Below, in pieces: positions 21,962 to 37,504 of a stretch of 64,000 bases of DNA. Below the pieces are notes generated by a model that ran no database searches, was not told the DNA's origin, and was given only the letters and a program-made list of their open reading frames with translations. Both the position numbers and the translations under genes were made by a program. This DNA comes from Mycobacterium sp. (GTDB taxonomy: Bacteria; Actinomycetota; Actinomycetes; Mycobacteriales; Mycobacteriaceae), in the NCBI RefSeq assembly GCF_025933915.1, contig NZ_JAICZA010000006.1, positions 1 to 64,000 on the forward strand, written 5' to 3'. Positions within the stretch are counted from its first letter, which is position 1, and every line of letters starts with the position of its first letter.

Positions 21962-22619
21962 CGATGCCTCCGTTGTTTGGGCCCGTGATCTACGGGGAGC
22001 ACCGTCCGCAAAGCGGAGCAACCACGAAACATCCCGACGATCGTCAAGAACGTAACGCCGCGCCTGTCGCCCTGCCACTCGGAAGCCAAGTCGCAACACC
22101 CGGCGTACCGGACTGTCCCACGGCGGGGAAAGGGCAGGTCAAAGCGATTTCGGTGGAACGGAATCCGTCCTTTGAAGGCCACGCGGATGGGGTGGGTTCG
22201 ATGTGAATGTGCTGTACGTTTACTGTGCAGTCAATAGCGGATCGACGCGTACCAGCTAAGCGGGCCCGACCCCGGCTCCCTTTTTCCGGTGGGTCACCGA
22301 CCCGCCAGGTAATCCAGCGGCTCCAGGGGCGGGCGGCGGTGCTAGGACGAAGTGTCGCGGCAAGAGGCCGTTTGTTGTGCAACCACGACGTAAACGGTTG
22401 GGAAACGTTTCGAGTGGCGAGCCTCACAGACGCCGGGGTGCCGCTCGCCCGCGGAAGCCGGCGGCGCACGGCCTAGCTGCGCGAACGGGACGGCCGGGCC
22501 GATGGTGTCGATGTGTTCCGACGAGTGGCCCCAGATCGGATCGGGCATTAACTCCGAGGGAGTTTTGGCTGAATGCACGAATCGGGGACAACTCGATGGG
22601 ATCGGTTGCGCACAGCTAC

Positions 22620-23997
<1,378 letters not shown>

Positions 23998-24164
23998 CCG
24001 CCTGATCGCTTGCCGGCGCTTTGTCCGGCCGGCCCTCTATTCGCCTGGTCACAATTCGGCCGTAGGGACCTTCGGCCCTGTTTTGCGACGCCTGTGGCGT
24101 GGCATCTTTATGTAACCGCGTGACACAGACACATTGCGCGTTGCTGGCCGCCAGGGAGGGTTTC

Positions 24165-25181
24165 GTGTCCAAGGATCTGACTAATCTGCAGCTACTGCAG
24201 GAACTCGAGCCGGTGGTCGAGCGCCTGCTCAACCGCCACCTCTCGATGTTCAAGGAATGGAATCCGCACGATTACGTGCCCTGGTCGGACGGCAAAAACT
24301 TCTACGCACTGGACGGCCAGGATTGGGAGCCCGGGCAGACCCAGTTGCCCGACGTCGCGCAGGTGGCGATGGTCCAGAACCTGCTGACGGAGGACAATTT
24401 GCCGTCCTATCATCGCGAGATCGCGATGAACTTCAGCATGGACGGTCCGTGGGGGCAGTGGGTGAATCGGTGGACCTCGGAGGAGGCCCGACACAGCACC
24501 GCGTTGCGCGATTACCTCGTCGTCACCCGCACCGTCGATCCGGTGGAGTTGGAAAAGCTACGGCTCGAGCAAATGACCAGGGGCTTTAGCCCCGGCCAGA
24601 ATCAGCAGGGCGAGATGTTTGCTGAGGGTCTGTTCGACTCGGTCATGTACGTCTCGTTCCAGGAATTGGCGACCCGTGTCTCGCACCGCAACACCGGCAA
24701 AGTCAGTAACGACTCCATCGCCGAGCAGTTGATGGCCAGGGTGTCGCACGACGAGAACCTGCACATGATCTTTTATCGGGATGTCAGCGCCGCGGGTCTG
24801 GACATTGCACCCAATCAAGCGATGAAGTCGGTGCATCGCATTCTGCGCAATTTCAAGATGCCGGGATTCACGGTGCCCGAGTTTCGGCGTAAGGCGGTCA
24901 TCATTGCCGTCGGCGGTGTCTATGACCCGCGCATTCATCTCGACGAAGTGGTCATGCCGGTATTGAAGAAGTGGCGCATCTTTGAACGCGAAGACATTAC
25001 CGGCGAGGCCGCCCGGATGCGCGACGACCTCGCGCTACTGGTCAAGGAACTCCAGGACGCCTCCGAAAAATTCGACGAATCCAAGCAGCGCTACCTCGAA
25101 CGCGAGGCGCGTAGGACCGAGAAGATCACCGCCAGCAAAGTGCTTCAAACGAAGGGGACGCTGACCTTGAGCGGGCACTGA
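24165..25181 (+). CDS. Acyl-ACP desaturase (DesA1-like)
   Basis: ELEPVVERLLNRHLSMFKEWNPHDYVPWSDGKNFYALDGQDW, EEARHSTALRDYL, SHDENLHMIFYRD. Confidence 0.9.
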   Translation: MSKDLTNLQLLQELEPVVERLLNRHLSMFKEWNPHDYVPWSDGKNFYALDGQDWEPGQTQLPDVAQVAMVQNLLTEDNLPSYHREIAMNFSMDGPWGQWVNRWTSEEARHSTALRDYLVVTRTVDPVELEKLRLEQMTRGFSPGQNQQGEMFAEGLFDSVMYVSFQELATRVSHRNTGKVSNDSIAEQLMARVSHDENLHMIFYRDVSAAGLDIAPNQAMKSVHRILRNFKMPGFTVPEFRRKAVIIAVGGVYDPRIHLDEVVMPVLKKWRIFEREDITGEAARMRDDLALLVKELQDASEKFDESKQRYLEREARRTEKITASKVLQTKGTLTLSGH

Positions 25182-25185
25182 GTAT

Positions 25186-25193
25186 GGTTATGC
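25186..25193. repeat. Left copy of 8-bp target-site duplication GGTTATGC
   Basis: Identical to 31820-31827, directly abutting the terminal inverted repeats. Confidence 0.9.
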
Positions 25194-25440
25194 GGCTCTT
25201 CGCAAATGAGAGTGCACTGGTAGTCGGCGTAGGTCCGCGGTCGGGGGTCGTGTCGTTTCGATGAGGCGGCTTGGTGGGTTGAGCATTCGGGTTCCTACAC
25301 TCGCCCACCAACGCGTCGGGTGACCCGTATCTGGGCGTCCGCCGTGTGGTGCAGTTGACACGTCGTGCGCCCGATGGAATTGGGGGTAACTCTGATTGAT
25401 GGCAGCGGGAGGAGAGCAAACAGTCGGCAGCCGTCGACGT
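25194..25440 (+). mobile_element. Truncated left end of a second ISL3-family element
   Basis: Aligns with the leader of the intact IS (IR, then GTGTCGT..TGAGGCGG..GGTGGGT..TCCTAC..GGTGACCC, GACACG..TGCGC.CGAT.GA.TTGGG); no intact transposase follows. The right limit is approximate. Confidence 0.7.
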
Positions 25441-25561
25441 TGACATGATCCGAAGTGAAGTGGGGCAAACCGCTGCGGGCGCTAGTTGCATCCATTAGGT
25501 GCTGTCGGTGGACGCAGGTGTGCCGCGCCACAACGACTTCAGCTGTTGGGTCAGCGTTGGC

Positions 25562-26800
25562 TTAGCAGGTGGAGTTGAATGCGATCGGCAGGGTGGTGGG
25601 TCCTCCCAGCGCTGAGACTGGTTTCCATGGGGCTGGACCGGTGCGCCGGGCGTTGGGCATGCGCTGTGTCATGACCGCTAGGGCTTGGGTCAATTCGAGG
25701 CGCGCGAGATTGGCTCCGAGGCAGTAGTGCACGCCGCTGCCGAATGTCTGGATCGGTGGGGCGCCCCGGCGCCTGAGGTCGAGGCGGTCGGGGTCGGCGC
25801 AGACGGCGGGATCCCGGTTGGCTGCACCGGTATTGACGACAACGATCGTGCCGGCGGCGATTTTCACGCCCGCGAGTTCGACATCCTCAACGGCCGTGCG
25901 CAACGTGACGAACGTCATCGGCGAATGGCGGATGAGCTCCTCAACGGCATCGGTCGCCAGCTCTGGATGCCGGCCCAGCAGCGCCCACTGGTCGGGGTGA
26001 TCGCACAGGACGTGTACGGCCGCACTCAATTGGAGGCGGGTGGTGTCGGTGCCCGCTAACAACAGGCCAGCGACAAGCATGCGCAGTTCGTCGCCGCTAA
26101 GGCGGTCGCCGTCGTCTTCGGCGCGGATCAACTCGGAGATCAGGTCGTCGGTCAAGCCACGGCGACGATGCGCAACCATGTCGTCGATGTAGGCGTCCAG
26201 GGCGTCCCAAGCGGTCAGGATGTCCGGCGTGGCCTTGGCCGCATCCCAGCTGAAGGCCTTCAAGATGTCATCGGTCCAGTCGGAGAACAGTTCCCAGTCT
26301 TCCGGTGGCGCGCCGAGTAGCGAGCAGATCACCGGAATCGGGTATTGGCGGGCGATGTCGGTGACCACGTCGCAATGCCCGCGGGCGCTGACGCTGTCCA
26401 CCAGGCCGGTGATGACGTCGACGATCGTCGTACGTAGCCGGGCCGTCGCCTTGGGTGTGAAGGCCCTACTTACCAGCCGGCGCAGCCGGTGGTGGTCGTC
26501 GCCGTCGAGGCTGATGATGTTGGCGGCGACGCGGTCCCATAACGGGCCCGAGGTGATGCCTTGGGCGGCAAGGAACATCCCTTGCGGTACCCGGAAGCGG
26601 GAGTCGCGCAGCACCGTGTGCACGAGCTCGTAGGTCAGCAGCTCAGGGCCGTATGGGCCGATTGCAATCGGCGCCTTCGTGCGGGCGGCGCTGATGATGG
26701 CGTGCGCGTCGTCGGGGTGCTGAGCATGTTGGTAATCGATCGTGGGCAGCCCGGCATCGAAGACACTCGGGCAGCTCGATCCATCAACGGTCACGGTCAT
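25562..26800 (-). CDS. Cytochrome P450 (transposon cargo)
   Basis: I-helix LLAGTDTTR, ExxR region, heme loop FGSGVHYCLGANLARLE; start at MTVTVDG. Confidence 0.9.
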   Translation of the reverse strand: MTVTVDGSSCPSVFDAGLPTIDYQHAQHPDDAHAIISAARTKAPIAIGPYGPELLTYELVHTVLRDSRFRVPQGMFLAAQGITSGPLWDRVAANIISLDGDDHHRLRRLVSRAFTPKATARLRTTIVDVITGLVDSVSARGHCDVVTDIARQYPIPVICSLLGAPPEDWELFSDWTDDILKAFSWDAAKATPDILTAWDALDAYIDDMVAHRRRGLTDDLISELIRAEDDGDRLSGDELRMLVAGLLLAGTDTTRLQLSAAVHVLCDHPDQWALLGRHPELATDAVEELIRHSPMTFVTLRTAVEDVELAGVKIAAGTIVVVNTGAANRDPAVCADPDRLDLRRRGAPPIQTFGSGVHYCLGANLARLELTQALAVMTQRMPNARRTGPAPWKPVSALGGPTTLPIAFNSTC

Positions 26801-27050
26801 GGGTGGTCCTCCTCGGTCGGGTGGCCTGAATTTCACTGACTCGACCGTGGCGTTTTTGCAGCGTCAGATCATCGGGGAGAACTCGTAACTGAACGGGGCG
26901 GGCGGGGTCGGCACGCGTCGCCTGGTGTTTTTGCCCAGCATTGCCGCGCTGGCGGCGGCACGCTGTGTTCACCGAATCGACTGCTCAGTGCCGTTGGGAT
27001 ACGGGATTTCCCTGATGTTTGCGGCTCGTTGCCCCGAGATGCTGGCTAGC

Positions 27051-30000
27051 ATGACCGAAACTGATCCACGCGCGGCGATGCCGCCGGTGAACTGGAGTGA
27101 GTTGGGCGTGGGCGAGCTGCCAACCGGGACGGTGACGCTGCTGCTCGCCGATATCGAGGGCTCGACGGGGTTGTGGGACACCCAAGCGGAGGCGATGACG
27201 GCCGCCATCGAACGCCTGGACCGCACGCTGGCCGAGCTGCTCGCCGTGCACGGCGGGGTGCGGCCGGTTGAGCAGGGTGAGGGCGACAGCTTCGTGGTCG
27301 CGTTCGCCCGAGCGACCGAGGCCACGGCGTGCGCCTTGGAGTTGCAGCGGGCGCCGCTGGCTCCGATCCGGTTGCGCATCGGCGTGCACACCGGCGAGGT
27401 GCAATTGCGCGACGAGAGCAACTATGTCGGGCCGACCATCAATCGGACGGCGCGGCTGCGCGACCTGGCCCACGGCGGCCAGACGGTGCTCTCGGGTACC
27501 ACCGAGGATTTGGTCGTCGATGCGCTTCCGCCTAACGCATGGCTGACCGATCTCGGCCGCCACGAACTGCGCGGTGTTGCCCGTCCCGAACGGGTGGCGC
27601 AGCTGTGTCACCCCGACATCCGCAACGAGTTTCCGCCGCTACGGGCGCCCAAACCCGTTGCCGCGGAACGGTTGCCGACGCAGCTCACGAGCTTCATCGG
27701 CCGCAACGCGCAGATCAACGATGTGCGTCAGATTCTCGCGGCGAATCGGTTGGTGACCTTGACCGGGGCGGGCGGCGTGGGTAAGACCCGGCTGGCCATC
27801 CAGGTCGCCGGGCAGCTAGCCACCGAGTTTGGCGACGGCGCATGGTATGTCGAGCTTGCCCCGATTACCGATCCCAACCTGGTGGCGGTCGCGATGGCAA
27901 ACGCCCTCGGCCAGGCGGATCAGCCGGGTCGGTCCAGCACCGACACGCTCACGCGGGCCGTGGGCGAGCGTCGCATGTTGGTGGTGCTGGACAACTGTGA
28001 GCACGTGTTGGAGGCGGTTGCGGCGCTGACCAGCTCGCTGCTGCGCGCCTGCCCGGAACTAACGCTGTTGGCGACCAGTCGTGAGCCGATCGGGGTGGCC
28101 GGCGAGGTGACCTGGCAGGTGCCGTCGCTGTCGTTGGACGACGAGGCCATCGAGCTGTTCGTCGACCGGGCGCGCCTGGTGCGACCCGCTTTCACGGTCA
28201 GCGGCGAAGAGATTGACGCGGTGCGGGAGATCTGCCGTCGCCTCGATGGCATCCCGCTGGCCATCGAACTGGCCGCGGCCCGAGTGCGGGCGTTGTCGCT
28301 ACAGGAGATCGTCGGCAGCCTGCACGACCGCTTCCGCCTGTTGACCGGTGGCGGGCGCACCGCCGTGCGCCGCCAGCAAACGTTGCGGGCCTCGGTCGAC
28401 TGGTCGCACGCATTGCTGGCCGAGCCCGAGCGGGTGTTGTTTCGCCGGCTCGCGGTGTTCCTGGGTGGATTCGACCTCGCGGCAGCCCGCGCCGTCGCCG
28501 CCGACACCGAGGTCGAGCGCTACCAGGTGCTCGATCAGCTCACGCTGCTGGTGGACAAATCGCTCGTGGTGGCCGAAGACCGACACGGTCGGACGCGCTA
28601 CCGGCTGCTGGAGACGGTGCGCCAGTACGCTCTGGAAAAGCTCGGCGAATCCGGCGAGGCCGACGACGTGCGTACCCGGCACCGCGACCACTACACCTCC
28701 CTGGGCGCCCTGCTCGGCACCCCAGGGCAAGCTGGCCGCGAGGCGCGTATCGAGCAGGCCGAAGCCGAGATCGACAACTTGCGTGCCGCGTTCGCGTGGA
28801 GTCGCGAAAACTCCGACATCGAGCTCGCATTGCAGCTCGTGTCGTCGCTGCAGCCGCTGTGGCTAGGGCGGGGCCGCATCCAGGAAGGGCTGGGCTGGTT
28901 CGACGCCGTCCTCAGCGACGACACCGCGCACGGCATCGAGGTCGCGGCCGGGGTACGGGCGCGGGCGCTGGCCGACAAGGCCGCGCTCGCCACCCAGGTC
29001 GTCGCCGTCGACCTCGATCAGGCCGAAGAAGCCCTGGCGATCGCGCGGGAGATTGGCGACTCGGCCCTGGTGGCCCGGGCGCTGACCGCCTGCGGAGGTA
29101 TCGCCGTCTTCAACACCGAGGTGGCCGCCCGCTACCTCGCTGAGGCAAGCGAACTGGCCCGGGGCCTCGGCGACCGAGGGATGTTGAGCGAGATCCTCGG
29201 CTTTCAGGCGTACGCCGCGTTCATCGCGGGTGACCCGATCGCGGCGCGCGCGGCCGGTGAAGAGGGGCGCGACCTCGCCGACGCGATCGGTGACCGGCCG
29301 GCCGCGTTTCGCTGTCGCTGGTCCCTCGGTTTGGCACTATGGATCCAGGGCGAGCTGGCCGGGGCCCTCGCGCAGTTGCGGGAGGCGGCTGCCGACGCTG
29401 AGACCAATCACGACGTGGTCGGCAGGGCGGCCATGCTGTTCTGCCAGGGCCAGGCGTTGGCGTACCAGGGTGACACGACGGCGGCCCGAGCCGCGGCCGC
29501 CGCGGCGATCGTCGCCGCCGCCGATATTGGGGGGTTCCTCGAGGGCTTTACCTACGCGGCGTTGGCTGTCGCGACTCTGGCGGCGGGGGACGTAGCAGCC
29601 GCGTCCGATGCGAGCGAGGCGGCCTCGCAGCGGATGAGTGCCGAGCTGGGGGTAGTGAATGTCAACCCGATAGCGCAGGTTGCGCTGGCGCGGGGTGATC
29701 TGATCGCGGCGCGCCGCTGGGCCGACGATGCCGTCTCGATGATGCGGGGCTGGCATCTAGCGGTGGCGCTGACGACGCGTGCGCGCGTTGCGATCGCACG
29801 AGGTGAGCCGGAACTGGCCGAACGTGACGCCCACGACGCACTCTCCTGCGCAGCCGGCGTCGAGGCACACCTGGGCATTCCGGATGCCCTGGAGTGCCTG
29901 GGTGCGCTGGCCGGCGCTGCCGAGAGCCACCGCGAAGCGGCACGGCTGTTCGGCGCAGCGGACGCCCTCCGGCAACGCATGGGCGCCGTCCGGTTCAAGA

Positions 30001-30359
30001 TCTATGACGCCGAGCACGACGCCGCGGTCGCCACGCTTCGTAATGCATTGGGCGAAGCCGACTTCGAGTCCGCATGGGCCGAGGGTGCAGAACTGTCCGC
30101 CGACGAAGCGATCGCCTACGCCCAGCGTGGCCGCGGCGAACGCAAACGCCCGTCCACCGGCTGGGCCTCGCTCACCCCCGCCGAACTCGACGTCGTCAAG
30201 CTCATCAGTGAGGGCTTGGGAAACAAGGACATCGCCACAAGGCTTTTCATCTCACCACGCACCGTCGAAACCCACCTCACCCACGTCTACACCAAGCTCG
30301 GCCTGGCCTCGCGCCTCCAACTTGCCCAAGAGGCAGCGCGTCAAATCGGCTATTCATGA
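27051..30359 (+). CDS. Class III cyclase domain + NB-ARC/AAA-like ATPase + C-terminal LuxR HTH regulator (Rv0386/Rv1358/Rv2488c-like)
   Basis: TVTLLLADIEGSTGLW; P-loop TGAGGVGKTRLA; C-terminal LTPAELDVVKLISEGLGNKDIATRLFISPRTVETHLTHVYTKLGL. Confidence 0.88.
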   Translation: MTETDPRAAMPPVNWSELGVGELPTGTVTLLLADIEGSTGLWDTQAEAMTAAIERLDRTLAELLAVHGGVRPVEQGEGDSFVVAFARATEATACALELQRAPLAPIRLRIGVHTGEVQLRDESNYVGPTINRTARLRDLAHGGQTVLSGTTEDLVVDALPPNAWLTDLGRHELRGVARPERVAQLCHPDIRNEFPPLRAPKPVAAERLPTQLTSFIGRNAQINDVRQILAANRLVTLTGAGGVGKTRLAIQVAGQLATEFGDGAWYVELAPITDPNLVAVAMANALGQADQPGRSSTDTLTRAVGERRMLVVLDNCEHVLEAVAALTSSLLRACPELTLLATSREPIGVAGEVTWQVPSLSLDDEAIELFVDRARLVRPAFTVSGEEIDAVREICRRLDGIPLAIELAAARVRALSLQEIVGSLHDRFRLLTGGGRTAVRRQQTLRASVDWSHALLAEPERVLFRRLAVFLGGFDLAAARAVAADTEVERYQVLDQLTLLVDKSLVVAEDRHGRTRYRLLETVRQYALEKLGESGEADDVRTRHRDHYTSLGALLGTPGQAGREARIEQAEAEIDNLRAAFAWSRENSDIELALQLVSSLQPLWLGRGRIQEGLGWFDAVLSDDTAHGIEVAAGVRARALADKAALATQVVAVDLDQAEEALAIAREIGDSALVARALTACGGIAVFNTEVAARYLAEASELARGLGDRGMLSEILGFQAYAAFIAGDPIAARAAGEEGRDLADAIGDRPAAFRCRWSLGLALWIQGELAGALAQLREAAADAETNHDVVGRAAMLFCQGQALAYQGDTTAARAAAAAAIVAAADIGGFLEGFTYAALAVATLAAGDVAAASDASEAASQRMSAELGVVNVNPIAQVALARGDLIAARRWADDAVSMMRGWHLAVALTTRARVAIARGEPELAERDAHDALSCAAGVEAHLGIPDALECLGALAGAAESHREAARLFGAADALRQRMGAVRFKIYDAEHDAAVATLRNALGEADFESAWAEGAELSADEAIAYAQRGRGERKRPSTGWASLTPAELDVVKLISEGLGNKDIATRLFISPRTVETHLTHVYTKLGLASRLQLAQEAARQIGYS

Positions 30360-31819
30360 ACGAGAGTTCAGTTGCCGGCAGATTTCCGCGTGACCGTCTC
30401 GTGTCGTCGGGCTGAGGCGGGGTGTCGGTGGGTGACGATGCAGGCTCCTACGCGCTGTTTCACGAACACCTGCGAGGTGACCCTTGCCTGAGGCTACTGC
30501 GTGCCCGCCGTCTGTTGTTGCCGACACGATCATGCGCACGATCGAGTTGGGTGTGACGATTACCGACGCCGCCGTCGACGAGAAGACCACAACGATCTTC
30601 TGTGCACCGGTATCGCGCGATCCCCGCTGCCCGGCCTGTGGTCGGCAGGGTCGCTACCGCGACACCGTCACTCGACCGTTGACCGATCTGCCGGTCGCTG
30701 GCTGTCCGCTGGTGCTACAAGTAGCCGTGCCCCGCTACCGCTGCGTGACCCCCGAGTGTGGGCGTGCGGTGTTCAATCAGGATCTTGGGAAGCTGGCCGC
30801 TCCGCGGGCGTCCACGACACGGCGCTGTGCCCGGTATGTGTTGCGGCGGTTGATGATCGACCGCACCACCATTGCGGCGATCGCCGCCGAACTCGGTGTC
30901 TCCTGGCACACTGTCAGCTCGATCGCGATGCGTGCGACCGCCGACCTCGTGGCCGCGGCAGGGCCGGATCGGTTGACCGGGGTGCGAGTGATCGGCGTCG
31001 ATGAGCACCGCTGGGCACCCCGACGCATCGGCCCGGCCGGGTTTGTCACACTGATCATCGATCTGACCCCTGTTCATGCTCAGGCAGGCCCAGCACGGCT
31101 GCTTGACCTGGTGCCCGGCCGTTCAGCGACGGCACTGGCGGACTGGCTGGCCGCTCAACCCGCCGATTTTTCCCGAGCCGTGGAGGTCATCGCGATGGAC
31201 GGGTTCGCCGGATACAAGACCGCCGCCACTGCAGTCATCCCGGACGCGGTCACCGTGATGGACCCGTTCCACGTTGTCGCACTGGCCGGCGCCAAGCTCG
31301 ACATGTGCCGCCAACGCATCAAACAGCAGACCCTGGGCCGGCGTGGCCACACCGGTGATCCGCTCTACCGGATTCGGCGCATCGGCCGCACCCGCCTCCA
31401 GCTGCTCTCGACACGCCAGTACAACCGCCTGAGCAGCGTTCTCGACACCGACGAGCACGTTGCGGTCAAGGTTGCCTGGTTGATCTACCAGAAGATCATC
31501 GCCGCCTACGCCGACCCAAACCGGCGCCGCGGCAAGAAAACAATGACCACGCTGATCAGCTCGATCCGACGCGGGGTGCCTGCCGGACTGGAGGAGATCG
31601 CCCAACTCGGCCGTACCCTATGGCGCCGCCGCGATGACATCCTGGCGTTCTTCGACCACCACGCCTCCAACGGACCGACCGAAGCCATCAACGGACGCCT
31701 GGAAGCACTACGCCGCAACGCCCTCGGGTTCCGCAACCTTACCCACTACCGATGGCGCTCACTACTGCACAGCGGTGCACTCCACTCACTCGTGAATGCA
31801 CTCTGAATTACGAAGAGCC
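30348..31819 (+). mobile_element. Intact ISL3-family insertion sequence
   Basis: Imperfect inner left IR GGCTATTCATGAACGAGAGTTCA at 30348-30370, intact transposase, right IR at 31797-31819. Confidence 0.82.
30484..31806 (+). CDS. ISL3-family transposase (440 aa)
   Basis: Zn-finger CPACGRQGRYRDTVTR..CVTPECGR, DDE-type GVDEHRW / MDPFHVV / NGPTEAINGRLE. Confidence 0.93.
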   Translation: MPEATACPPSVVADTIMRTIELGVTITDAAVDEKTTTIFCAPVSRDPRCPACGRQGRYRDTVTRPLTDLPVAGCPLVLQVAVPRYRCVTPECGRAVFNQDLGKLAAPRASTTRRCARYVLRRLMIDRTTIAAIAAELGVSWHTVSSIAMRATADLVAAAGPDRLTGVRVIGVDEHRWAPRRIGPAGFVTLIIDLTPVHAQAGPARLLDLVPGRSATALADWLAAQPADFSRAVEVIAMDGFAGYKTAATAVIPDAVTVMDPFHVVALAGAKLDMCRQRIKQQTLGRRGHTGDPLYRIRRIGRTRLQLLSTRQYNRLSSVLDTDEHVAVKVAWLIYQKIIAAYADPNRRRGKKTMTTLISSIRRGVPAGLEEIAQLGRTLWRRRDDILAFFDHHASNGPTEAINGRLEALRRNALGFRNLTHYRWRSLLHSGALHSLVNAL

Positions 31820-31827
31820 GGTTATGC
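31820..31827. repeat. Right copy of 8-bp target-site duplication GGTTATGC
   Basis: Identical to 25186-25193. Confidence 0.9.
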
Positions 31828-31971
31828 GCCGACCAGGACGGCAGCTAACCCGCTACGTCGACCTAATTCTCAATGTCTACTAAACGGTTGGCAGCGAATA
31901 TCCGTCATTCTCCTGTTTTTTCACGGTGCGGCGCTTAGCATCTGTCCCAACTTCAACGGGATGGAGTATTC

Positions 31972-32091
31972 GTGTCTGGTCTTAAATCGAAAGTCACTGT
32001 TGCCGTAGTCCTTGCCTTCGCAACTTTCACTGTGTCGGGATGTCTGGCGACTGTTGAATGCACATCGCCGATCACCTGCGTGCCGTCGTAG
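31972..32091 (+). CDS. 39-aa putative micro-lipoprotein
   Basis: GTG start, GGAG 5 nt upstream; MSGLKSKVTVAVVLAFATFTVSGCLATVECTSPITCVPS with lipobox TVSGC. Confidence 0.55.
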   Translation: MSGLKSKVTVAVVLAFATFTVSGCLATVECTSPITCVPS

Positions 32092-32164
32092 CACTGCCGA
32101 CACGTCTTAGCTTGCGCGCTCACGGCGCGGGGCGGCCGAGGACAATCCCGAAAGCCACCGCCGC

Positions 32165-33079
32165 TCACGCCGACGAGCTCGACTCGAGGTAGTCCGCCAA
32201 GATGCGGCTCACCAGCGACTCGATATTGGATTCGATCGACGACGCGAGCGTGGCGGTGACCGTAGCGACCGCTTGAGTCCGGAAGCGCACCAGCATGGTG
32301 ATCAGCTCGGCGATCTCGGCGTCGGCCGGCAGCGGCTCGCCGGGCTTGATGCGGTCCAGTACGTGTTCGGCGCCCGCGCGCACCAACATCTCGCTGATCT
32401 TGTCGATCTCGGGGACGATCTGCTCGTGCAGGTCGATGAGCTTGCCGAATTCGACGCCATAGCCGCGGATCTCGTTGAACGCCTCGATCAGTTTCGGGCG
32501 GGTGATGGTGGCGCGGGGCCCGTCAAGCCGGATCACCTGTAGCGCCACCAGGCGCTCGAACGCTTGCGCGTCGCCGACGAGTCGCTGGGCGTCGGCCAGC
32601 GGCATGGTTTCGGGCTTCTCGGTGGTCCACGGCCCCGCGATGGCGGTTTCGAGGCCCAGCACGTCGCCGAGGTTCTTGCCTTCTTCCCACGCGCTCAACA
32701 TTTCTCGTACGTGCGCGATGGTGTAGCCGCGGTCGAGCATCGAGGTGATCAGCCGCAACCGGGTCAGGTGGGTGTCGTTGAACAGCGCGATCCGCCCGAC
32801 GCGCAGGGGCGGAGGCAGCAGCCCGCGGTCGCGGTAGACGCGGATGTTGCGAGTGGTGGTGCCCGCCAACCGCGCCAGGTCGTCGATTCGGTACTCACCG
32901 GAGTTCGCGGCGCCGTGCGGGTGACGGACCGCCGCGTCGAAAAGCTGTGACACCGCGCCCTCGATGAGTTGGCGGTATTCGCGCGATTGACGCCGCACGC
33001 GTTTGGGTGCGCGCCGCACGTTGTGCAGCACGCTGGCGATGGTGCCCGGCTCGGGACGCGACGCATGCTCGGTTGCCAT
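32165..33079 (-). CDS. MerR-family transcriptional regulator
   Basis: YRIDDLARLAGTTTRNIRVYRDRGLLPPPLRVGRIALFNDTHLTRLRLI. Confidence 0.9.
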   Translation of the reverse strand: MATEHASRPEPGTIASVLHNVRRAPKRVRRQSREYRQLIEGAVSQLFDAAVRHPHGAANSGEYRIDDLARLAGTTTRNIRVYRDRGLLPPPLRVGRIALFNDTHLTRLRLITSMLDRGYTIAHVREMLSAWEEGKNLGDVLGLETAIAGPWTTEKPETMPLADAQRLVGDAQAFERLVALQVIRLDGPRATITRPKLIEAFNEIRGYGVEFGKLIDLHEQIVPEIDKISEMLVRAGAEHVLDRIKPGEPLPADAEIAELITMLVRFRTQAVATVTATLASSIESNIESLVSRILADYLESSSSA

Positions 33080-33091
33080 CAGTGCGGCATC

Positions 33092-34591
33092 TCAGGCGGG
33101 CCGGGTGGCGTGCGTCCGGGCGCGACGCGCCACCGCCTGATAGTCCTCGTACCGGAAATCCCTCATCTGGCGAAGATACTGCGTGGCGAAGCCCGGATAC
33201 ATCGAGCCGTTGAATCCGTCCTTGGTGAGGTACCAGCTGCGGCAACCCGACATCCAGGTCGTCTTGGTGAGTCGGCGTTGAAGGTCCTCGTTGTGGAGAC
33301 GTTGGACCTCTTCGCGCACATCGAGATAGCGCAGATCGTCATCGAGGATGGTTTTGATACCGCGTACCGCGTAGTCCAACTGGCCCTCGATGTAGACCAG
33401 CAGCGAGTTGTGCCCGGGCCCGGAGTTGGGGCCGGTCATGACAAACAAATTCGGGTACCCGTGCACGTTGATGCTCTTGTAAGCCTGTGCGCCGCCATCC
33501 CATTCGGCGGCCAGCGAGCGCCCGCCGAGTCCGGTGACCGGAAACGGCGGACCGGTCAGATGCACGTCGTAACCGGTCGCGAACACGATGCAATCGAGAT
33601 GATGCTCGATGCCGTCACTGGTGCGAATGCCGGCCGGGCTCAACGTGGCGATCGGCCAGTCGATGAGCTTGCAGTTGTCGCGTTGCAGCGCCGGGTAATA
33701 GTCGCTGGAGACCAGCATGCGCTTGCACCCCGGCCTGAAGTCGGGTGTCAGCTGGCGCCGCAGCCACGGATCCTTCACCTGAGCGCGCAGGTGCGCCCGC
33801 CCAAGCCGGGCGACCACCGACGTCAGCGGCGTGTCCCACACCAGTGCGGTGGCGCTGGCTTCGTGGCCCCAATAGAGCGCCTGGCGCGCAAGCTGTTGGG
33901 TGGCGGGGACTTTGGCGAACAAGGATTGCACGGCCGGCGGGGTGGCGACGTCCAAGCGCGGCAGCACCCAGCACGGTGTGCGCTGGAACACCTTGACGAA
34001 CTCGGCCCGCTTGACCAGCTCGGGGATGATCTGGATCGCGCTGGCGCCGGTGCCGATGACCGCGACTCGCTTGCCCGCGAAGTCGTAGTCGTGATCCCAG
34101 CGGGCGCTGTGGATCTTGTGCCCGCGGTAGCTGTCCAGGCCTCGGATGTCGGGGAAGCTGACATCGGAGAGCGGACCGGAAGCCAACACCACGCTGCGGG
34201 CGCGGAATTTCTTGCGGTTCTTGGTGGTCGCGGTCCATACGCCGGTCTCCTCGTCGAAGGTCAAGTCCTTGACCTCGTAGCCGAACTTGATGCGGCCGCG
34301 GATGCCGAACCTGTCCGCCATGTCCTCGAGGTGGCGATAGATTTCCGGGGCGGGGGAGTAGGTTCGCGACCAGGTTGGGTTCTTCACGAACGAGTACGAG
34401 TACAGCAGCGACGGGACGTCACAGCTGGCACCGGGATACGTTGTGTCGCGCCAGGTTCCGCCGACCCGGTCGGAGCGCTCCAACATCACGATGTCGTCGA
34501 CTCCGGCTTCGGCCAATCGGGTCGCCGCGCCCAATCCAGTGAAGCCGGCCCCGACGATGAGCGCCGCGTGGACGCGGTTGTTGTTCGCCAT
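33092..34591 (-). CDS. Flavin-containing / Baeyer-Villiger-type monooxygenase
   Basis: GAGFTGLGAATRL, VIGTGASAIQIIPEL, FATGYDVH. Confidence 0.9.
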   Translation of the reverse strand: MANNNRVHAALIVGAGFTGLGAATRLAEAGVDDIVMLERSDRVGGTWRDTTYPGASCDVPSLLYSYSFVKNPTWSRTYSPAPEIYRHLEDMADRFGIRGRIKFGYEVKDLTFDEETGVWTATTKNRKKFRARSVVLASGPLSDVSFPDIRGLDSYRGHKIHSARWDHDYDFAGKRVAVIGTGASAIQIIPELVKRAEFVKVFQRTPCWVLPRLDVATPPAVQSLFAKVPATQQLARQALYWGHEASATALVWDTPLTSVVARLGRAHLRAQVKDPWLRRQLTPDFRPGCKRMLVSSDYYPALQRDNCKLIDWPIATLSPAGIRTSDGIEHHLDCIVFATGYDVHLTGPPFPVTGLGGRSLAAEWDGGAQAYKSINVHGYPNLFVMTGPNSGPGHNSLLVYIEGQLDYAVRGIKTILDDDLRYLDVREEVQRLHNEDLQRRLTKTTWMSGCRSWYLTKDGFNGSMYPGFATQYLRQMRDFRYEDYQAVARRARTHATRPA

Positions 34592-34593
34592 TC

Positions 34594-35514
34594 TCACGCC
34601 GCCGGCTCGTGGGTGAGTTCCCCAACCCATGTCGGTACCGACGGAAGCAGGGGCCGCGGATATCGGTCGGAAAGCCACACCATCGAATTCGCCAGCAGGT
34701 GGTAGGGATGGCGTGGATTCGTGACCACTCCGGCGTAGCGCCTCAGGAACCGATACGTCGGTACCCGCCTGGTGCGTTCGCCGCGATCACCAAGCTCTTT
34801 GAAGCGTTTCACAGCCCGGTAAAGCCGCTCGGGCTCCATACCCATGGCGGTGATCTCGTTGCGGATCCTGTTGATCAACGGTGCACCCATGATCGCACCG
34901 ATGATGAGACCCGGAGTGGCATTGTGACCGACGAAGTCGATCAGCAACCGCCGGATCTTCGCATGTCCGATCATGTCGAGAACTTCGAAATCGATGACCA
35001 GATGCCGTGATTCGTCATTGTTGATCTTCTCGAAGACACGGTGACAAACAGGGTCGTGCACCTCGTCGAGGAGAAATTTCAACAGGGCGCCGTCCAATGC
35101 GACTTCGAGCATCGGAATGACGGTGCCGAGCAGAGACAGCGGCATATCGTCGGCCCAGCGGTCCAGCCAGTCGATCGCCAATCGGATGTTCACGTTCGGC
35201 TCGGGAATCTCACCGTCCTCGAGCATGCCCCAGCGCTTCATCAGCGCCAGTTCGGCATTGGCGTGGCGCTGCTCCTCGGCGTGGAAGTAGCGGTAGATCT
35301 CGGCGATGGTCGGTGTGGGTGCCTTCTTCACCAGCGCCGCGAAGCCCCTGGCACCGATGTTCTCGATCCAGCACAGGTCGGCCATGAACGCCTTGAGCTG
35401 CGGCCGCTGTTCATCACTGATTGTTTCGGCGCCGGGTGCGTCCCAGTCGATATCGGCGAGTGCCCACTGCCGGTCTTTGATTTTGGCGAGCATGGCTTCC
35501 ATGTCGATGGCCAC
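34594..35514 (-). CDS. Ferritin-like diiron protein
   Basis: ExxH-type iron ligands YRYFHAEEQRHANAE and NNDESRHLVIDFEVL; start at GTG (VAIDMEAM). Confidence 0.7.
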   Translation of the reverse strand: MAIDMEAMLAKIKDRQWALADIDWDAPGAETISDEQRPQLKAFMADLCWIENIGARGFAALVKKAPTPTIAEIYRYFHAEEQRHANAELALMKRWGMLEDGEIPEPNVNIRLAIDWLDRWADDMPLSLLGTVIPMLEVALDGALLKFLLDEVHDPVCHRVFEKINNDESRHLVIDFEVLDMIGHAKIRRLLIDFVGHNATPGLIIGAIMGAPLINRIRNEITAMGMEPERLYRAVKRFKELGDRGERTRRVPTYRFLRRYAGVVTNPRHPYHLLANSMVWLSDRYPRPLLPSVPTWVGELTHEPAA

Positions 35515-35540
35515 CGGGAGCTCCTTTGCGTTCGGTTTCT

Positions 35541-36383
35541 TCAGGGCAGGTTGATGCGGGAGATTAGGCCGGCCGCGCGCGTATAGGTTTGCGGGGCCAG
35601 GCGTTTGACGTTCCAGCCGATCTTGGCGTCGAACTGCGGCATGCAGTACAGCTCGCCGCGGTCGTGTGTGTCCAAACAGATTCGCGCGACTTTGTCGGGC
35701 GAGAGTCCGGTCCAGCGCATCAATTTGGCGGCAAGCTCGTTGGATTGCTCGCTGATGCGGCCGGACTCGAGAATGTTGGTCTTGACGAAGGTCGGACACA
35801 GCACGGTGACCCGCACCGCCGTGCCGGCCAGTTCGGCGGCCAGGGTCTCCGACAGCGACAGCACACCGGCCTTGCTGACGTTGTAGGCGGCCATTCCCGG
35901 AGCGGCGCCGAATGCCGCCGCGGAGGCCACGTTGATAATGCCGCGGGGCGTCCGGGACGGCTCGGCGTCGCGCAGGATCGGGGTGAACACATGGCAGCCG
36001 TGGATGGGACCCCACAGGTTGATCCCGAGGGTCCACACCCAATCGTCCAGCGGCGCATCGCCGATGGCGGCACCGCCCGCGCCGACGCCGGCGTTGTTGA
36101 TCACCAACGTCGGTGGCGCCGCGAACCAGGCCTGCGACTGTTCGGCCAGCGCCTGCATGTCGTCGAATCGCGATACGTCGCAACGGATTGCCGTGGCCTT
36201 GCCGCCGTGCTCGGTGATCACATTGGCCGTCTGTTGGGCCGCGGTCTGGTCGATATCACTGCACACGACCGCGCCACCGCGACGGCCGAGTTCGACGGCA
36301 AAGGCGGCGCCGATACCGCTTCCGGCGCCGGTGACCACCGCGGAGGCGCCCCGGCTGATTTTGGGCTTGTTGAGTCCGAACAT
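35541..36383 (-). CDS. Short-chain dehydrogenase/reductase
   Basis: VVTGAGSGIGAAFAVEL, NNAGVG, YNVSKAG. Confidence 0.9.
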   Translation of the reverse strand: MFGLNKPKISRGASAVVTGAGSGIGAAFAVELGRRGGAVVCSDIDQTAAQQTANVITEHGGKATAIRCDVSRFDDMQALAEQSQAWFAAPPTLVINNAGVGAGGAAIGDAPLDDWVWTLGINLWGPIHGCHVFTPILRDAEPSRTPRGIINVASAAAFGAAPGMAAYNVSKAGVLSLSETLAAELAGTAVRVTVLCPTFVKTNILESGRISEQSNELAAKLMRWTGLSPDKVARICLDTHDRGELYCMPQFDAKIGWNVKRLAPQTYTRAAGLISRINLP

Positions 36384-36385
36384 TG

Positions 36386-37504
36386 TCAGCGGGCCTCCTC
36401 GGCCGGGGTGCGGGCGTCCTGCAGGGCGTGGGCGATGAAGCGCGCGACGTAGGCCATGGCCTTGGCGGCCTCGGGTGTCATGCGTGGCAACGCCTGGAAG
36501 ACGTGCACCTGGTGCGGCCAGATTTGCAGTTCGCATCGGCCCCCGGCGGTTTGGATGTCGTCGGCGAGTTGGTGCGCATCCCCTTGCAGCATCTCGGCGC
36601 CGCCGGCTTGGATCAGGGTGGGCGGAAGCGCGGGACCGCCGGCCACGTCGAGCGTCAGCCGCTGGTGGGTGAGCTCGACGCCGCTGTGGTAGAGGCTGAC
36701 CAACCGGACCGCGTTGGCCGCCCGGGTGGCCGGGTCGGGGCGCATCCGTTCACGCGCGAGCGACAGCGCGAACGTGAGGTCGTACAGGGGAGAGAACAAC
36801 ACTTGTGCGGCGGGGTGATTGGCGGCGATTTCGGGTTGCAGCAGCAGGTCGACGGACAAATGACCGCCCGCCGAATCGCCGGCGATCACGATCTGGTTCG
36901 GCGGTACGCCGCAGGTGTTCACCAGCCAGTCCCAACCCGCGCGAACATCGTCGGCCGCGGTGGGGAAGCGGTGACGCGGGGCCAGTCGGTAGTCCACGGA
37001 GAACACCGGCAGGCCGGTCAAGGACGACAGCCAGGATGTCAACCGCCGGTGCGTCTTTGGCGAACACACGGCGTAGCCGCTGCCGTGCACGTAATAGATG
37101 GCTTCGGTGACGGTCGACGAGCGAGCTCGCTCGCGAGAAGAGCCGGCGCCCATCGGGTTAGTGACGGTCGACGAGCGAGCTCGCTCGCGAGAAGAGCCGG
37201 CGCCCATCGGGTTAGTGACGGTCGACGAGCGCTCGGTTTCGCTGGTAGGCGTTCGCGGCCCGTACACCCATTCGCCCTTGACGCGGCGGCCGTCGGGCAA
37301 CGTGGTGTCGACCGGGTCGACGCGAGCGCCCGCGAGCGAGGGGCCGAACGTCCCCATGATCCCGGCGATGATCTGGCGCGACAGCCACAGTCCCCAGGCC
37401 CGTTCGGGCGGAATCACGCTGGTGATCGGCCGCAGGGTGTACGTACTTACCGTTGCCGCGCCGCGGGATCGCAACGAGCCACGAGCCGGAACGCCGTCCG
37501 TCAT
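36386..37504 (-). CDS. Alpha/beta hydrolase (HSL-type esterase/lipase)
   Basis: VHGSGYAVCSPKTHRRL, IAGDSAGGHLSVDLLL; contains an in-frame repeat. Confidence 0.85.
   Translation of the reverse strand: MTDGVPARGSLRSRGAATVSTYTLRPITSVIPPERAWGLWLSRQIIAGIMGTFGPSLAGARVDPVDTTLPDGRRVKGEWVYGPRTPTSETERSSTVTNPMGAGSSRERARSSTVTNPMGAGSSRERARSSTVTEAIYYVHGSGYAVCSPKTHRRLTSWLSSLTGLPVFSVDYRLAPRHRFPTAADDVRAGWDWLVNTCGVPPNQIVIAGDSAGGHLSVDLLLQPEIAANHPAAQVLFSPLYDLTFALSLARERMRPDPATRAANAVRLVSLYHSGVELTHQRLTLDVAGGPALPPTLIQAGGAEMLQGDAHQLADDIQTAGGRCELQIWPHQVHVFQALPRMTPEAAKAMAYVARFIAHALQDARTPAEEAR
37107..37231. repeat. 54-bp minisatellite, 2.3 copies, inside the hydrolase CDS
   Basis: Units at 37107-37160 and 37161-37214 identical; third partial 37215-37231; each holds palindrome CGAGCGAGCTCGCTCG. 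Confidence 0.95.

Follow-up and report, generated by a model that had tools for sequence, protein, structure and literature searches.

At positions 25186-31827 of a 64,000-nucleotide stretch of the genome of Mycobacterium sp. (assembly GCF_025933915.1, contig NZ_JAICZA010000006.1; the whole stretch is referred to as the window), two ISL3-type termini lie 6.6 kb apart and enclose a cytochrome P450 gene and a large, divergently transcribed regulator gene. The locus raises the question of whether this block is a transposon that moves as a whole, or a resident gene pair beside which an insertion sequence (IS) happens to have landed. The 6,626-bp unit spans 25194-31819. Its outer left terminal inverted repeat (IRL), GGCTCTTCGCAAATGAGAGTGCA (25194-25216, forward strand), is identical at 20 of 23 positions to the right terminal inverted repeat (IRR), GGCTCTTCGTAATTCAGAGTGCA (31797-31819, reverse strand), which in turn differs very little from that of standalone mycobacterial ISL3 elements. 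Both ends are directly abutted by an 8-bp target-site duplication, GGTTATGC (25186-25193 and 31820-31827). The initial annotation had placed the ends, the 20/23 match and the perfect 8-bp repeat exactly so. The termini are of the ISL3 family type (GGCTCTTCG...AGAGTGCA), identical in kind to those of the standalone relatives, and the pattern common to both ends recurs neither elsewhere in the window at up to three mismatches nor in 100 dinucleotide shuffles. The unit is present once in its own genome, where the other matches are relatives of its cargo genes at 68-73%.

A 248-genome sample of the genus contained one further occurrence, in Mycobacterium sp. E796 (contig NZ_LZKK01000154.1; G050:C154:6824-13451). 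This second copy is 97.0% identical overall, lies at a different locus and is flanked on both sides by a different 8-bp duplication, CGTTTGTT, so that the duplication expected of the ISL3 family accompanies both copies. Recurrence of the entire 6.6 kb with its own duplication bears out the earlier proposal that the outer ends moved as a unit, and supplies the relocated copy that had been suggested as a check. With the outer left end as the sole query against 396 genomes, full-length matches (1-287) were obtained in the window's genome and in E796 only; in searches that covered up to 396 genomes of the genus, these two copies, one in each species, were the total. When 56 named loci and additional standalone loci were scanned for other long inverted-repeat pairs, E796 alone had a matching 8-bp duplication. 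Two other candidates, L119 (3.4 kb) and L123 (2.8 and 5.1 kb), were ruled out by mismatched ends and duplications. The gene preceding the E796 copy is, as we read its sequence, phosphotransferase-like, and the copy lies inside a repeat (L051:13452-13669) that recurs across the genus and that we take from its sequence to be REP13E12-like. On that reading, the E796 site is one mobile-type sequence inserted within another.

Sites without the unit were found for both loci. When the flanks of the window's copy are joined, solely to display uninterrupted sites, they match two related genomes, G130 (88%) and G046 (82%), without interruption, and the junction in each holds one diverged copy of the duplication with a GTTATG core. 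In G130, the counterparts of 22586-25193 and 31859-37123 are only 30 bp apart, at 91% and 94% identity; G046 also retains the right flank. A diverged version of the empty site that the initial annotation had reconstructed is thus present in two related species, and the sequence to either side of it is syntenic. At the E796 locus, the right flank in joined form aligns at 96% with a second repeat of E796 itself (G050:C142); the alignment runs through the junction, where (A)TTTGTT occurs once, and related repeats match across the junction in many other genomes. A salicylate synthase gene (TIGR03494, 643 bits) lies at 22645-23997, two genes before the insertion in the window; the mycobactin siderophore pathway uses salicylate synthase. 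The cargo sits between one pair of ISL3 ends and has moved with them, at two loci, with two duplications and with uninterrupted counterparts, which is the definition of an ISL3-type passenger transposon. The 6,626-bp unit is a real and recently mobile member of this family.

The internal organization of the unit is composite. The P450 gene (25562-26800, reverse strand; Pfam PF00067) is intact, encodes 412 aa and carries the heme-ligand motif FGSGVHYCLG; its best matches among solved P450 structures are biosynthetic hydroxylases (4z5p at the top, with 225 bits). The regulator (27051-30359, forward strand) is an intact, STAND-type protein of 1102 aa combining cyclase, NB-ARC and LuxR domains (Pfam PF00211, PF00931, PF00196), although its mechanical open reading frame opens earlier, at 26925. 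It is adjacent to the P450 gene, is divergently transcribed and probably controls it; a promoter scan of the intergenic region found nothing. The transposase gene (30484-31806, forward strand), intact in the window, encodes a 440-aa protein of the ISL3 DDE type (NCBIfam NF033550, 326 bits against a cutoff of 180; Pfam PF01610, 178 bits). It belongs to a complete ISL3 insertion sequence of 1,472 bp (30348-31819, forward strand), equal in size to its standalone relatives. The ~1.3-1.7 kb without cargo that are usual for a simple ISL3 IS thus describe this inner element and not the outer 6,626-bp unit with its two cargo genes. The inner IRL (30348-30370, forward strand) is mutated at conserved position 5, which is C in 19 of the 19 standalone relatives listed and A here. 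Judged by its sequence, the inner left end survives in a slightly decayed state, and we infer from a few substitutions only that it has lost its function. The outer ends carry a matching duplication in both copies and the inner left end in neither: GTCAAATC precedes the inner left end in both, and has no match to the sequence beyond the right end in either.

At its outer left, the unit has an orphan ISL3 left end of ~197 bp (25194-25390, forward strand), which is of another origin and retains remnants of the initial ~15-20 codons of a transposase open reading frame. Aligned with 30348-30557 it is 66% identical (score 108; best of 200 shuffles, 39), as compared with 71% over its full 197 bp to other mycobacterial ISL3 left ends and 79% over 133 bp to L113/L084. 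By these alignments, the right part of the unit is a complete IS with a second, internal left end that the initial annotation had missed, and the outer left end is an orphan from a different ISL3 lineage. The P450 and its divergent regulator are hence cargo of an ISL3-type transposon, as had been proposed, but the carrier is not one IS that has grown; it is a complete IS together with an orphan left end. Between the orphan end and the cargo lies a 180-bp segment (25391-25570) with no detectable similarity to the ISL3 elements tested, to which neither DNA comparison nor translated comparison with the transposase gave an assignment.

The P450-regulator pair is also found, in divergent orientation, as syntenic chromosome at 75-79% in several mycobacteria, with conserved neighbors. 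The initial annotation had counted such synteny against mobility. It is literally present, but does not contradict the mobility of this copy, because the chromosomal pair is the ordinary source of the cargo. In the window's genome, E796, G130, G046, G096 and G017, the right-hand neighbor of the pair was located alone, without the pair adjacent to it. The closest homologues of the pair, in G096 and G017 (85%), extend from ~25571 to 30343, so that homology is lost within the final codons of each gene. At its C terminus the P450 has FNSTC where its homologues have FDAGH, the last ~5 codons being different, and the regulator ends in RQIGYS as against RHA, with its stop codon inside the inner IRL. 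The heme-ligand motif and the LuxR domain are undamaged. In G096 and G017 the homologous pair lies in a 5.3-kb block (L176:13215-18528 and L177:6464-11774, respectively) that is 98.6% identical between the two species and has no common flanks in the regions compared; one of its borders adjoins an apparent IS3-type transposase remnant. The pair may also move by another route.

Comparison of the two copies of the unit bears on its transfer and use. Outside one tract they differ by ~1% (P450 0.97%, IS 1.02%, orphan end 0.5%), whereas other genes common to both genomes are 76-84% identical (17-24% divergence; desaturase 84%). This disparity shows that the unit crossed species: it was exchanged recently between these two or acquired by both from a third. 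Changes in the P450 (4 nonsynonymous against 8 synonymous, p = 0.003) and in the regulator before the tract (5 against 11, p = 0.0005) are biased towards synonymous sites, while those in the transposase (6 against 6, p = 0.08) have no significant bias and the E796 transposase is frameshifted by a GG inserted in a run of G, possibly a sequencing error. Small as these numbers are, they suggest that the cargo is in use by its hosts. Within the regulator tract at 28161-29760, divergence between the window and E796 (L051) is 2-20% per 200 bp. In the two most divergent bins, G096 sides with the window's copy at 43 sites against 18, and so it is probably the E796 copy that acquired foreign regulator DNA; a search for a closer donor gave none. 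The tract is an instance of recombination within the cargo of a mobile element.

Taken together, the locus is very probably a functional-looking ISL3 passenger transposon, in which one transposase and an outer pair of left and right ends captured the gene pair and moved it between species. In this model, the single DDE transposase would act on the outer left end (25194) together with the right end (31819), and the whole block would be inserted with an 8-bp duplication. To build such a unit, a chromosomal P450-regulator pair would have received a complete ISL3 IS at the 3′ terminus of its regulator gene, at a time when the far side of the P450 was occupied by the left end of another ISL3 relative, itself partly deleted; either event, arrival of the left end or of the IS, may have come first. 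Transposition would then have employed the distant left end in place of the inner one belonging to the IS, and the latter has become mutated in the time after that. A more tentative extension, plausible without being favored, is that in this hybrid of the ends of two ISL3 lineages the decay of the inner end binds the transposase to the cargo, such that a selectable P450-regulator module and its mobilizing enzyme can spread only together among mycobacteria.

Other explanations fare less well. One is that the inner 1.47-kb IS inserted beside a resident pair and that the 8-bp repeat and the outer left end are coincidental; in its favor, this IS is a full element that includes a left end, and the pair is syntenic chromosome in other mycobacteria. 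Yet the related species whose site is uninterrupted do not have the pair there, the inner ends lack a duplication in both copies, and the whole 6.6 kb recurs elsewhere with a duplication of its own. The E796 copy and the uninterrupted sites refute coincidental insertion beside resident genes, which retains virtually no probability. A classical compound transposon, in which the pair lay between two full ISL3 copies and deletion later cut the left one to 197 bp, would explain why the left end keeps remains of a transposase start, as a truncated IS copy does. However, the left end, at only 66% identity to the inner one, is closer (71-79%) to other lineages, so these ends did not arise by duplication of a single IS, and the short left end is already in place in both known copies. 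What flanks the cargo is one complete IS and a ~197-bp orphan end, rather than two complete copies, and an origin of the compound kind is unlikely.

It is far less probable still that the unit was moved passively by larger elements (plasmid, phage or homologous recombination) and that its ISL3 ends no longer act. Transfer between species requires a vehicle besides the transposase, the frameshift in the E796 transposase would fit with passive carriage, and the regulator tract at 28.16-29.76 kb bears witness to recombination with divergent DNA. Against this, two different and precise 8-bp duplications abut the ISL3 ends, which requires transposition at least once per site, and the plasmid, phage and viral-contig records searched lacked the unit and gave only distantly related ISL3 transposases and P450s. 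On the passenger transposon reading, two loci with filled as well as uninterrupted sites illustrate how, in nature, an insertion sequence becomes a cargo transposon by way of a borrowed end and one complete IS, with capture boundaries within the last codons of both cargo genes. A P450 that moves with its adjacent regulator between mycobacterial species by transposition also bears on the diversification of the large P450 sets of mycobacteria.

Among the nearest relatives of the unit are standalone mycobacterial elements of 1.3-1.75 kb with the same ends and perfect 8-bp duplications (e.g., AGCAAACG, TGATTAGG and CGTTTCCA). Examples such as L057 (G059), L054 (G229) and L112 resemble the unit in their ends, transposase (77-84% at the DNA level) and 8-bp duplications, but are ~1.47 kb long and devoid of cargo. 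Longer copies of 1,615 and 1,755 bp, as compared with 1,475 bp, occur in L114, L115, L116 and L055, from records titled M. nebraskense, M. gordonae and M. scrofulaceum; these contain tandem ~140-bp copies within the transposase gene. Circular transposition intermediates have been reported for some ISL3 members (PMC3812183).

The view of the initial annotation that ISL3 elements normally carry a transposase only overlooks the cargo-bearing ISPpu12, DEH and Tn7546. The open-access papers searched yielded no mycobacterial ISL3 element with P450 cargo, which does not prove that none exists. Tn7546 of Staphylococcus hominis, a 3.8-kb element whose repeats begin GGGTCTTCGGA, combines an ISL3-family transposase with merA and merR and generates an 8-bp duplication (PMC9782665). 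Like the unit, it places one ISL3-family transposase and an enzyme gene with its regulator between inverted repeats. It differs in size and in conferring mercury resistance, whereas the 6.6-kb unit carries a P450, a STAND-type regulator and a second, internal ISL3 left end. In DEH of Pseudomonas sp. PP3, the ISL3 family likewise mobilizes dehI, which encodes a catabolic enzyme, along with its dedicated regulator dehRI (PMC12060670). There, two almost identical complete copies of ISPpu12 flank the cargo, whereas the unit has a complete IS on the right only, its left side consisting of a ~197-bp orphan end from another lineage. ISPpu12 itself, an ISL3-family element of 3,372 bp, holds passengers inside its ISL3 ends as the unit does, but these are lspA, czcD and a cueR-like regulator (PMC4447125). 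Passenger transposons of the ISL3 family are thus already known, and it is the construction and cargo of the present unit that are unusual.
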